This document shows, one piece after another, positions 17,319 to 21,162 of a DNA stretch of 64,000 nucleotides. This DNA comes from Oscillospiraceae bacterium. GTDB lineage: Bacteria; Bacillota; Clostridia; Oscillospirales; Oscillospiraceae. The stretch is taken from NCBI GenBank assembly GCA_021769865.1, contig JAETSB010000002.1:62001-126000 (forward strand), written 5' to 3'. The notes below the pieces were generated by a model. That model made no database searches and was not told the DNA's origin. It worked only from the letters and a program-made list of their open reading frames with translations. Numbering within the stretch: the stretch's first letter is position 1; every line of letters starts with the position of its first letter. The translations under genes were made by a program, and so were the position numbers.

Positions 17319-17327
17319 GGCAAAACC

Positions 17328-17363
17328 AAGGGCCAGCCTGGTGGAGAGGCTGGCCCTTGTCTT
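17328..17363 (+). terminator. Terminator of the DUF4173 operon
   Basis: 12-bp perfect stem AAGGGCCAGCCT / AGGCTGGCCCTT followed by GTCTTC; weak U tract. Confidence 0.75.
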
Positions 17364-17431: not shown

Positions 17432-18649
17432 TTATTTGAGTACGGAGGCGGCGATGGTGTCGGCCAGCGCGTCGATCTCCGACTCGTTTTGCGGCTGGAG
17501 AGAGGACGTGACGGTCATCTCGTCGTCCAGAATCTCCATGTGCTTGAGCTGCTCGATTTCTTCCCGCATCAGCGCCCCGGACCGGGGAGCCCAGGAGCCG
17601 CTGCCCATGATGGCCACGGTGCGCTTCTGGAGATTCAGCGCCTTCATGTCCATCAGGAAATTGTGCATCGGCGGGAAGATGCCGAGATTATAGGTGACGG
17701 AAGCCAGCACCAGATGGCTGTACTTGAAGAGGTCCGAAATCAGGTAGCTGACGTGGGTGCTGGACACGTCGTAGAGCCTTGTATTGGTCACGCCCCGGGC
17801 CGTCAGCTTGGCGGCCAGCACCTCGGCGGCGGCCTCGGTGTTGCCGTACATGGAGGCGTAGACGATCATGACGCCCTTCTCCTCCGGCTCGTAGGTGGCC
17901 CAGTGGGTGTACTTGTCGATGATATAGCCCAGGTCCTTCCGCCAGATGGGTCCGTGGAGGGGGCAGAGCATCTTGATATTGTCCAGGCCCACGATGGTGG
18001 CCGCCTTGTTTAAAAGGGCCACCACCTGGGGGCCGTACTTGCCCACGATGTTGGTGTAGTAGCGCCGGGCATCGTCGATCCACTCGTGGGCGAAGTCCAC
18101 CTCGTCGGCGAACAGCTTCCCGTCCAGGGACCGGAAGGAGCCGAAGGCGTCGGCGGAGAAGAGAACGCCGTTGGTGGTGTCGAAAGTCACCATGGCCTCC
18201 GGCCAGTGGACCATGGGGGCCATCACGAAGGCCACGGTGTGCTTGCCGAAGCACTTGGTGTCGCCTTCCTTGACCTCTTCTACCAGGTTGGGGTCCAGGG
18301 CGTAGCCGAACTGGTTGAGGAGCGTCACCGCCTTGGGGGTGGTGATGATCTTCACCTTGGGCCAGCGGAGGAGGATCTCCTCGATGGAGGCGGCGTGGTC
18401 CGGCTCCACGTGGTTGATGACCAGATAGTCCAGGGGGCGGCCCGCCAGGACCGCCTTCACGTTGGCGATGAACTGCCGGCCCACCGCCCAGTCGGCGGTG
18501 TCGAAGAGGACGGTCTTCTCGTCCGTGAGGACATAGGCGTTGTAGGAAACGCCGTGATACAGGGGATGGATATTCTCAAAGAGGGCCAGACGGTGCTCGT
18601 CCGCGCCTACCCAGTAGAGGTCGTCGGTGACTTGGCGGTAATTATACAT
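17432..18649 (-). CDS. Flavodiiron protein (oxygen/NO reductase)
   Basis: 405 residues. The beta-lactamase-like domain holds all diiron ligands: H80-x-E82-x-D84-H85 (HVEPDH), H147, D166 and H231 (PLHGPIW). The C-terminal flavodoxin domain has the FMN loop VYASMYGNTEAA. Class A flavodiiron proteins reduce O2 to water or NO to N2O, taking electrons from rubredoxin. The gene immediately upstream encodes a protein ending in a rubredoxin domain, 33 bases away, which makes that protein the obvious electron donor. Expected in the cytosol as a head-to-tail dimer. Confidence 0.95.
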   Translation of the reverse strand: MYNYRQVTDDLYWVGADEHRLALFENIHPLYHGVSYNAYVLTDEKTVLFDTADWAVGRQFIANVKAVLAGRPLDYLVINHVEPDHAASIEEILLRWPKVKIITTPKAVTLLNQFGYALDPNLVEEVKEGDTKCFGKHTVAFVMAPMVHWPEAMVTFDTTNGVLFSADAFGSFRSLDGKLFADEVDFAHEWIDDARRYYTNIVGKYGPQVVALLNKAATIVGLDNIKMLCPLHGPIWRKDLGYIIDKYTHWATYEPEEKGVMIVYASMYGNTEAAAEVLAAKLTARGVTNTRLYDVSSTHVSYLISDLFKYSHLVLASVTYNLGIFPPMHNFLMDMKALNLQKRTVAIMGSGSWAPRSGALMREEIEQLKHMEILDDEMTVTSSLQPQNESEIDALADTIAASVLK

Positions 18650-18682
18650 TGCGTAGCCTCCTTATTTTCATGTCTGGAGCGG

Positions 18683-20593
18683 TTAAACTTCAATCTCGAT
18701 GAACGCGTCCACGCCCTCGCCGCAGTGGGGGCAGGTCCAGCCTTCCGGCAGGTCCTTGAAGGCGGTGCCGGGCTTGACGTCATTCTCCGGGTCCCCGGCA
18801 AGCACGTCGTACTCATGGCCGCAGCCGTTGCAAATATAGAGCTTCCGGGGCGGGGTGACCTTCTTGGGCACCATCCGCTTCATCTTCACCATGGGCGGCG
18901 CGGGCTGCTTCTCCCCGGTGTCCAGGGCGGCGGTGAGCAGGGGCAGAATCTCCATCACGTCCCCCACGATGCCGTAGTCGCAGTTCTTGAAGATTTTCGC
19001 GTTGGGATTTTTATTGATGGCCACAATGCAGGAGGCGTCCTTGATGCCCTTCAAATGCTGGATCGCGCCGGAGATGCCGCAGGCAATGTAGAGATTACCC
19101 TTGAACTTCTGGCCGGACATGCCCACGTAGCGGTTCAGGGGCACGTATTTCAGCGTCTCCGCCACAGGGCGGCTGGAGCCGACGGCGGCGCCGGCGGCCT
19201 TCGCCAGGTCCTCGATGAGCTTCATGTTCTTCTTCTCGCCGATGCCCTGCCCGGCGGAAACCACCCGCTCCGCCTGGGTGATGGGCGTGTCGATGGGGAT
19301 GCCCACGGTGAAGTCGTGACCGTCCTTCTTGAGGCTGGCCACCAGGGCTTCCACCTTCTCCTGGGCGGTGCCGTCCTTCCAAATCTGGCGCTTCCGGGCG
19401 CCGGTCTCCGGGCCCCGCTGCTGGGCGGGGGCGGCGGAGGCCTCCTTGGCGGCCTTGCCCAGGATGTGGGAGGCAATCACCACCCGCTGGATCTCGTTGG
19501 TGCCCTCGTAGATGGTGGTGATCTTGGCGTCCCGGTAGAACCGCTCCACCTCCATGCCCTTGAGGTAGCCGCAGCCGCCGAAGATCTGGAGGGCGTCGTT
19601 GGTGACCTCCAGGGCGATGTCGGAGGCGTACTGCTTGGCCATGGCGGACTCCATGCCGTAGGGCACATGGGCCTGTTTCAGCTCGGCGGCGCTGTAGACC
19701 AGGAAGCGGGCGCAGCGGAGCTTCGTCGCCATGTCGGCGATTTTAAAGGCGATGTTCTGCTGCTGGCAGATGGGCTTTCCGAACTGGACCCGGTCCTTGG
19801 AGTACTCCACGGCGGCCTCATAGGCCCCCTGGGCGATGCCCAGGGCCTGGGCCGCGATGCCGATGCGCCCGCCGTCCAGGGTGGACATGGCGATCTTGAA
19901 GCCCTGGCCCTCCTTGCCCAGCAGGTTCTCCTTGGGGACCTTGACGTTGTTGAAGTTCAGCTGGCAGGTGGCGGAGGAGCGGATGCCCATTTTGTCGTAG
20001 TGCTCCTCGAAGGTGAAGCCCTCCCAGCCCTTTTCCACGATGAAGGCGCTGATGCCCCGGGTGCCGATGCCGGGGGTGGTGACGGCGAAGACGACGTAGG
20101 TACTGGCCTCGCCGCCGTTGGTGATGAAGATTTTCTCTCCATTTAAGAGGTAGTGGTCCCCCATGTCCTCGGCGGTGGTCTCGGTGCCGCCGGCGTCGGA
20201 CCCGGCGTTGGGCTCCGTCAGGCCGAAGGCGCCGATCTTTCGGCCGGAGCACAGGTCGGGGAGGTATTTCTTCTTCTGCTCCTCATTGCCGAAGGCGTAG
20301 ATCGGATAGGTGCCCAGGGACGTGTGGGCGGAGAGGATGACCCCCGCGCCGCCGTCCACCCGGGCCAGTTCCTCCACGGCGATGGCGTAGCTGAGGGCGT
20401 CGGCTCCCGCGCCCTCGTACTCCGTGTCGTAGGGCAGGCCCATCAGGCCCAGCTCGCCCATCTTCTTCACGGCCTCCGTGGGGAAGCGGTTCTCCTTGTC
20501 CAGCAGGAAGGCGATGGGTTTGATCTCGGCCTCCGCAAATTCCCGGACTTTAGCCCGGAGGTCTTCGTGGGCCTGCGTGGTTTGATACAGCAT
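18683..20593 (-). CDS. Acyl-CoA dehydrogenase fused to EtfA FAD domain and rubredoxin
   Basis: 636 residues from ATG at 20593 ([15 protein letters not shown]), with AAAAGGAGG upstream. Residues 1-380 are a short-chain acyl-CoA dehydrogenase with catalytic base E363 ([11 protein letters not shown]). Residues about 440-565 are the FAD-binding C-terminal domain of ETF alpha ([37 protein letters not shown]). Residues 585-636 are rubredoxin with C588/C591 and C621/C624. No ETF beta or EtfA N-terminal domain is present. The order suggests electrons flow from acyl-CoA through two FADs to the Fe centre, then to the flavodiiron protein. In the EtfA segment the usual GGRG reads AGQG, losing an Arg that contacts FAD in canonical ETF. 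Confidence 0.93.
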
Positions 20594-20657
20594 GTGTGTG
20601 CCTCCTTTTCCCGGTATGGTCAGTTGTGGCATATAAAACGGATAAAACCCGGATACG

Positions 20658-21050
20658 CTAGAAAATATCGCTCAGGGGCATGCGCTGGAGCTCCCGGTCC
20701 AGGGCCTTCTGGATGCGGCAGAGCTCGCGGCAGACGCCGCAGCCGCCCTGGGGGAAGTTTTCGCACTGGTAGCCCTCCCGCTGGCAGCGGTTGAGGAGGG
20801 GCGGGTCACCGATGGACTGGAAGACGTCGTAAATGCTCAGGTCCTCACAGCGGCGCTTGAGGAAATACCCTCCGCTGACGCCCCGGCGGCTCTCCACGAT
20901 GCCGGCGGCCAGGAGGCGGTTCAGCAGCTTCAGGGTGATGGCCTTTTGCATGTGCTCCTGCCGGGCCACGGCGGCGGCGGAGAGCTGCCCCTCCTGGTGC
21001 AGGGCCCGGAGGATGCGCAGGGCGTAATCCATTTCTCTTGTGACCAGCAA
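20658..21050 (-). CDS. Rrf2 family regulator, probable Fe-S sensor
   Basis: 130 residues with the Rrf2 winged helix ([44 protein letters not shown]) and an unusual run of cysteines at 68, 89, 96, 104, 107 and 111. C89-x6-C96-x7-C104 resembles the three Fe-S ligands of IscR/NsrR. Located 64 bases upstream of the ACAD fusion gene in the same direction, with its own promoter; control of the O2/NO pathway by a labile cluster is the likely role (inference). Confidence 0.9.
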
Positions 21051-21094
21051 AAAACCACCTCGATCGATCTCATGGAATCAGCGGAATGACAATG

Positions 21095-21124
21095 TGTACA
21101 GGCCGCCCCACTATATATTGTACA
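21095..21124 (-). promoter_or_regulatory. Paired TGTACA half sites
   Basis: TGTACA occurs at 21095-21100 and 21119-21124, between the promoter and the Rrf2 start. Possible operator for the Rrf2 protein. Confidence 0.4.
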
Positions 21125-21134
21125 TTTTTCGTTA

Positions 21135-21162
21135 ATTATACCAGATGTGATGAAAAAGTCAA
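21135..21162 (-). promoter_or_regulatory. Promoter of the Rrf2/ACAD/flavodiiron operon
   Basis: Minus-strand -35 TTGACT (21157-21162), 16-base spacer, -10 TATAAT (21135-21140). Confidence 0.75.

Follow-up and report, generated by a model that had tools for sequence, protein, structure and literature searches.

The butyryl-CoA oxygen oxidoreductase (BOOR) of Fusobacterium nucleatum consists of a fusion protein (BCR) and a flavodiiron protein (FDP), encoded by FN1424-FN1423 (Bystrom & Wolthers 2024, as summarised in a 2025 review by the same authors; locus numbers as given in a later paper). According to that summary, the two proteins form an alpha4-beta4 complex with butyryl-CoA:O2 activity, which reduces O2 to water and showed no NO reductase activity. 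A 2026 preprint (PMC13404960) connects a regulator of the Rrf2 family with the BOOR of gut Clostridia, Oscillospiraceae among them; the linked protein C0FN14 is described there with the Asp8 that serves as cluster ligand in NsrR and with a recognition helix resembling those of NsrR and RisR. Both the enzyme pair and its link to an Rrf2 protein are already described in these sources, and a categorically new enzyme was rejected as a reading of the present locus since BOOR has been published.

The window, the whole stretch of 64,000 nucleotides of Oscillospiraceae DNA that was analysed, carries an operon that very probably encodes BOOR together with its own Rrf2 repressor. The genes, their domains, conserved ligands and order, a promoter-like site and a candidate operator were observed. 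All features lie on the minus strand, where one promoter is followed by the gene of an Rrf2-family regulator (20658..21050, 130 aa, TTG start), the BCR fusion gene (18683..20593, 636 aa) and the gene of a class A FDP (17432..18649, 405 aa). Residues of the fusion are numbered from the ATG at 20593 (an upstream ATG at 20632 would add 13); with this start, the gaps are 33 bases between FDP and fusion and 64 bases between fusion and Rrf2. The sigma-70-type promoter TTGACT-16-TATAAT (21135..21162) agrees with the consensus at 11 of 12 positions and has a TG before the -10 box, and an intrinsic terminator-like hairpin of 13 pairs (17327..17359) is located beyond the FDP gene. The same scan gave two promoter-like sites against 0.9 in shuffled sequences and five terminator-like sites against 3.3, numbers that alone prove little.

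In a single open frame, the fusion combines the N, M and C domains of Acyl-CoA_dh (a short-chain acyl-CoA dehydrogenase part, to about residue 377), the FAD domain of ETF_alpha (about 438-518) and Rubredoxin (about 586-631), all over the curated Pfam cut-offs; Pfam found neither EtfB nor the N-terminal domain of EtfA in it. The rubredoxin cysteines C588, C591, C621 and C624, as well as E363 and the GMSGQ loop at 491-495, are invariant among 30 aligned proteins (the window and 29 of 37 fetched relatives). An AlphaFold model of the fusion was of middling quality (mean pLDDT 77.9, pTM 0.62). The FDP contains only the ODP/Lactamase_B and Flavodoxin_1 domains, and its diiron ligands H80, E82, D84, H85, H148, D167 and H232 are invariant in all 17 aligned FDPs. 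The preliminary description, which had named three minus-strand genes with these gaps behind one promoter, a dehydrogenase/EtfA FAD/rubredoxin fusion and a class A FDP with all diiron ligands, was borne out on each point by the reading frames, the Pfam domains, the promoter scan and the FDP alignment.

The locus agrees with F. nucleatum BOOR in the domain order Bcd/EtfA C-terminal domain/rubredoxin and in the adjoining class A-type FDP, as far as that system is described in the sources above. It differs in the Rrf2 gene 64 bases in front and in its gut Oscillospiraceae host. Of the 53 named loci, spread over Bacillota, Fusobacteria, Brachyspira and a Synergistaceae bin, 52 have the FDP gene following the fusion gene, as do 36 of the 37 loci of the same family. 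F. nucleatum itself was absent from the 80 loci returned, among which the pair of F. gastrosuis (L104) has the same order and matches that of the window at 74% for the fusion (residues 1-633) and 66% for the FDP (1-405). As the full-length fusion architecture and the gene order recur in many genomes, chance or an assembly artefact was rejected. The order of all three genes, for which a search in related genomes had been proposed, was kept in part: the fusion-FDP pair is nearly constant, but a linked Rrf2 gene stands in front in only 18 of the 53 named loci. No Rrf2 of this kind was found in front in the other 35 named loci and in 25 of the 37 family loci, some of which have too little upstream sequence; the loci L034, L035 and L036 of the window's genus are counted here. 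At locus L126, a dehydrogenase-EtfA fusion lacking rubredoxin adjoins an FDP, so the built-in rubredoxin is not indispensable everywhere.

We infer that this copy acts as BOOR in the following order. At its dehydrogenase FAD, BCR would oxidize butyryl-CoA to crotonyl-CoA; the electrons would then pass to the FAD in the fused EtfA domain, the iron of the built-in rubredoxin, the FMN of the FDP and finally its diiron centre, where O2 would be reduced to water. Butyryl-CoA would be remade by the separate Bcd-EtfAB of the cell. Such a supply is plausible because the genome has, on another contig, a run of genes for 3-hydroxyacyl-CoA dehydrogenase, bcd, etfB and etfA, and also one RnfD/NqrB-type gene. 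The bifurcating clostridial Bcd-EtfAB likewise joins an acyl-CoA dehydrogenase with an EtfA FAD domain, whereas the fusion lacks EtfB and the EtfA N-terminal domain, and its electrons should reach rubredoxin rather than ferredoxin or flavodoxin. In Desulfovibrio ROO and Moorella FprA-Hrb a rubredoxin centre also feeds the FDP, the electron source of the ROO system being presumably NAD(P)H. For FprA-Hrb the 2025 review gives NAD(P)H, in contrast to butyryl-CoA acting through a built-in chain as proposed here. The path from acyl-CoA, here probably butyryl-CoA, through EtfA FAD, rubredoxin and FDP to O2 with no EtfB, as originally suggested from the sequence, is supported by the F. nucleatum enzyme; the suggestion that NO may serve as acceptor is unlikely to hold, given the lack of NO reductase activity in that complex.

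It is improbable that the dehydrogenase part takes another acyl-CoA (branched or longer) or works as an acryloyl-CoA reductase, with the FDP as a minor partner. The best NCBIfam match of the fusion is indeed the acryloyl-CoA reductase AcrC, at 481 bits below the cut-off of 640, and the separate EtfB on contig C27 scores over the cut-off for acryloyl-CoA reductase EtfB (495 against 475). However, among solved structures the fusion is closest in sequence to short-chain acyl-CoA dehydrogenases, first of all to 5ol2, which we take to be a clostridial Bcd; moreover, the pairing with the FDP is constant among the loci, and the genome holds a separate bcd with ETF genes. A role of the pair chiefly as NO reductase, with the same electron path and NO as physiological acceptor, would fit an NsrR-like Rrf2, and the best PDB match of the FDP, 1ycf (presumably Moorella FprA), was deposited as a nitric oxide reductase; the next matches are flavorubredoxin entries under the name anaerobic nitric oxide reductase. 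The Asp8 and the NsrR/RisR-like recognition helix described for C0FN14 (PMC13404960), of which Asp8 is present in the Rrf2 of the window, point the same way, but the signal of a regulator need not equal the substrate of the enzyme, and the Fusobacterium complex was inactive with NO according to the 2025 review, which makes this reading very improbable.

The Rrf2 protein of the window scores 79.9 bits with Pfam Rrf2 (cut-off 30) and just below the cut-off of the NCBIfam superfamily model TIGR00738 (72.4 against 73.3), and it falls under the NCBIfam equivalog cut-offs for NsrR (27.3 against 182) and IscR (32.8 against 207.55 and 24.3 against 275). It has the six cysteines first reported for it, but only C89, C96 and C104 are invariant among 12 aligned Rrf2 proteins, and the idea that all six matter was rejected. 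Asp8, which is Glu in L033, is present. With these residues, the protein is most likely a holder of an Fe-S cluster; three Fe-S cysteines, Asp8 and a position beside BCR and FDP are shared with the UniRef50_C0FN14 protein as described in the preprint. It differs from the linked Rrf2 proteins of relatives (C0FN14 itself being known by description) in its candidate operator and in forming a divergent, well-supported subclade of its own, with 29-39% identity to the 10 aligned linked proteins outside this subclade. In this tree the rows L203-L230 were labelled unlinked regardless of their neighbours, and the near-copies L049, L056, L058, L075 and L086 and the partial L100 were left out. The regulator would repress its own promoter, bound just after the -10 box, and be released once O2 or NO damages its Fe-S cluster.

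A candidate Rrf2 operator, AC-N-AAAA-NN-GTAC (21120..21132), is located just downstream of the -10 box. The comparison covered six regions of the window's subclade (five distinct), 23 regions of other linked Rrf2 genes and 52 regions counted as having no Rrf2 in front. The pattern was found just after the -10 box in all five distinct promoters of the subclade and in none of the 23 or the 52, and its longer form has one exact match in the whole assembly. In 18 of 22 distinct regions in front of other linked Rrf2 genes, another dyad, TTGAC-N8-TC(C/A/T)A, overlaps the -35 box. TTGAC occurs in 19 of these 22, the exceptions being L087, L093 and L104, and only L098 has it lacking the dyad; for L103 a second site was listed, and this row is part of the dyad consensus table. 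Among the 52 regions TTGAC occurs in 30 and the dyad at exact spacing in none (Fisher p 1.6e-12, ignoring relatedness and post hoc choice). At looser spacing the dyad was found in 19 of 23 linked regions (0.85 expected from shuffles) and in two of the 52, L066 and L091 (1.97 expected). Since TTGAC is the -35 box itself, shuffles understate chance, and the 30 unlinked promoters with TTGAC are the fairer control. Among the 23 are L104, with an Rrf2 that has a very long branch in the tree, and L087, whose region lies inside the gene; the 52 include two loci with an adjacent Rrf2, L058 (overlapping frames) and L066 (divergent); L092 and L100 were dropped, their contigs starting within the Rrf2 gene. 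Both patterns were written after the sequences had been viewed and many loci are related, and they are proposed here as candidate operators.

What seems new here is limited to details of the Rrf2 switch and its probable DNA site. A Fur/PerR-like box was found in nine of the 52 operons counted as having no Rrf2. The case is evenly balanced for a wider model in which different stress regulators can take each other's place at the BOOR operons of gut anaerobes: the main lineage of Rrf2 proteins acting at the dyad across -35, the window's subclade acting after -10 (this operon being perhaps its sole target), and Fur/PerR-like boxes in some of the Rrf2-less operons. The enzyme would then stay constant, while the O2/NO sensor is swapped or re-targeted.

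These results add an Oscillibacter-like gut lineage to the carriers of a characterised O2-scavenging enzyme fuelled by the central intermediate of butyrate fermentation. The candidate DNA sites make the control of BOOR in strict anaerobes testable. Diversion of butyryl-CoA to BOOR under O2 has been suggested for Fusobacterium in the 2025 review. If butyrate producers do the same, the control of BOOR would bear on butyrate yield in the inflamed gut.

The window carries a single three-gene unit on the minus strand, consisting of an Rrf2 regulator gene (20658-21050), a fusion gene (BCR, 18683-20593) and a flavodiiron protein (FDP) gene (17432-18649), spaced by 64 and 33 bases, respectively. A promoter-like site that agrees with the consensus at 11 of 12 positions (21162-21135, minus strand) and a terminator-like hairpin with a 13-pair stem (17359-17327, minus strand) came from a scan whose totals barely exceed those of its shuffles. 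According to Pfam, the fusion has all three domains of an acyl-CoA dehydrogenase, the FAD domain of EtfA (PF00766) and rubredoxin, all above cut-off, and lacks the N-terminal ETF domain PF01012. The FDP is of class A, its only domains being beta-lactamase-like and flavodoxin. The observation in the preliminary description is upheld. Among the best 60 of 202 PDB sequences, no best-matching stretch passed residue 404 of the 649 query residues, so these stretches leave the EtfA-rubredoxin part uncovered.

Within the family, 38 of 300 genomes, the window's own counted, contain a match that spans almost all of the EtfA-rubredoxin query, with an identity of at least 63%. The flanks of the 37 other loci were retrieved for gene-order comparison, and the fusion is followed by an FDP gene in 36; the exception (L070) stops at a contig end. 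A scan of named genomes, covering the best 80 of 594 loci, gave 53 (L073-L125) that match nearly the whole query. Among these best loci a same-strand FDP gene follows within 0.9 kb in 52 of the 53, and the remaining one (L081) also stops at a contig end. Contig ends truncate the fusion in four of the named loci (L076, L107, L118, L119) and the FDP in L110, while the best tblastn segment aligns the fusion only in part in L087, L094 and L106; the named and same-family sets overlap (e.g. L086/L044, L075/L033, L121/L065). Across 30 aligned fusions (the window and 29 of 37) there is no variation in the rubredoxin cysteines, in E363 or in the GMSGQ loop of EtfA, and there is none in the diiron ligands across 17 aligned FDPs (the window and 16 of 36); we take these residues to be catalytic or ligands.

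A 278 aa open frame separates fusion from FDP in a close relative (L077:5640-6476), and the gap in L076 is similar in size. A Tissierellia bin (L126:89-3097) encodes a dehydrogenase-EtfA fusion that stops short of rubredoxin, followed by an FDP gene, perhaps a variant relying on a separate rubredoxin. Dehydrogenase-EtfA fusions without rubredoxin also occur at L067:3479-5176 and L068:3474-5159, with no FDP on the retrieved stretch, L068 lying near a contig end.

A review (PMC12288474) describes in F. nucleatum a fusion of butyryl-CoA dehydrogenase, the EtfA C-terminus and rubredoxin with an adjoining FDP, named butyryl-CoA oxygen oxidoreductase (BOOR) by its authors, and states that BOOR is encoded by many Firmicutes that are obligate anaerobes, among them dominant butyrate-forming bacteria of the gut. 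The pair of F. gastrosuis (L104) shows identical gene order and 74% (residues 1-633 of 636) and 66% (1-405) identity to the window's fusion and FDP. The primary BOOR paper is reportedly that of Bystrom & Wolthers 2024. The nearest named locus among the best 80 of 594, an uncultured Oscillibacter sp. bin (L073), reaches 98 and 97%, respectively. The fusion and FDP of the window are very likely the BOOR enzyme.

The assembly (G000; 2.13 Mb, 39 contigs, 81% complete) bears the window on contig C28. The absence of ETF beta noted in the preliminary description holds for the operon; ETF-beta is present elsewhere in the genome. Contig C27 carries a 3-hydroxyacyl-CoA dehydrogenase gene, whose top model is 3-hydroxybutyryl-CoA dehydrogenase, below cut-off (376.5 vs 408). 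Behind it come bcd, etfB and an etfA that is cut by the contig end; this EtfB scores above the cut-off set for the EtfB model of acryloyl-CoA reductase. A second bcd (G000:C13:22216-23265) precedes an ETF gene judged EtfB-type by its missing EtfA FAD domain, and no second separate etfA to match scored over cut-off in the incomplete assembly. The genome also encodes a separate rubredoxin, a second flavodiiron-type ODP domain above cut-off (G000:C25:56134-56721) and one RnfD/NqrB-type protein. Because these separate genes are present, the fusion is a dedicated extra enzyme, and its supply with butyryl-CoA is plausible.

An Rrf2 adjoining BOOR has been described in gut Clostridia, including Oscillospiraceae, in a preprint (PMC13404960), where 149 neighbourhoods of close homologues of the Rrf2 protein C0FN14 include 123 with BCR and 115 with FDP. 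Here, a same-strand Rrf2 of this kind lies upstream in 18 of the 53 named loci (among the best 80 of 594), a count that omits the distant Rrf2 of L104; six of the others (L076, L088, L107, L118, L119, L121) have fewer than 600 bases upstream. In the same-family set it is upstream in 12 of 37 loci, four (L061, L065, L069, L071) having fewer than 600 bases there; in L066 it is divergent. C89, C96 and C104 are invariant across 12 aligned proteins. A tree of 76 Rrf2 proteins, built on few columns, rooted for drawing only and with bootstrap not yet settled, places the window protein in a five-member clade with a long stem (support 100/99), which joins a group of 29 rows, 21 BOOR-linked and eight without known link (95/91). 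It is the sole Rrf2 above the family cut-off in the incomplete assembly, with four more matches below. A window-genus genome has an Rrf2 gene directly behind the FDP and not before the fusion (L036:3321-3896), which falls among the IscR-like rows.

All operator patterns were first spotted by eye, and related genomes among the regions are not independent. Directly after the -10 box, AC-N-AAAA-NN-GTAC is present in all five distinct window-clade promoters (window, L033, L073, L074, L077), in none of 23 other linked regions and in none of 52 counted as unlinked; by eye, these promoters have diverged apart from this pattern and the promoter boxes. A longer form has its single match in the assembly at the window promoter, and the reversed control has none. 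In the other linked promoters, TC(C/A/T)A follows TTGAC at fixed spacing in 18 of 22 distinct regions, and in none of the 52 unlinked regions, though TTGAC is present in 30 of these. Between the divergent fusion and Rrf2 genes of L066 (6940-7236) there are two near-perfect inverted repeats of CTTGATAAAATTTATCAAG type, resembling this dyad; the second could alternatively be a terminator, since a T run comes after it. PerR control of flavodiiron proteins has precedent in clostridia. Within 200 bases upstream of the fusion, a Fur/PerR-like box (at most 5 mismatches to the consensus) was found in 9 of the 52 regions counted as unlinked (L037, L038, L039, L041, L042, L045, L051, L069, L120), against 0.78 expected from shuffles. 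Control of the window promoter by Rrf2 is well favoured, and AC-N-AAAA-NN-GTAC is a reasonable candidate for the exact operator.

Neither the enzyme nor its Rrf2 link is new; the modest addition made here consists of the divergent Rrf2 subclade and the candidate operator sites. The accessible literature on BOOR gave no operator description, which is a weak sign of novelty because the search was not aimed at operators by name. In anoxia the operon would most likely be held down by Rrf2. Damage to the Rrf2 cluster by O2 or NO would then lead to production of BCR and FDP, which would spend butyryl-CoA electrons to clear O2, while butyryl-CoA would be regenerated by Bcd-EtfAB.
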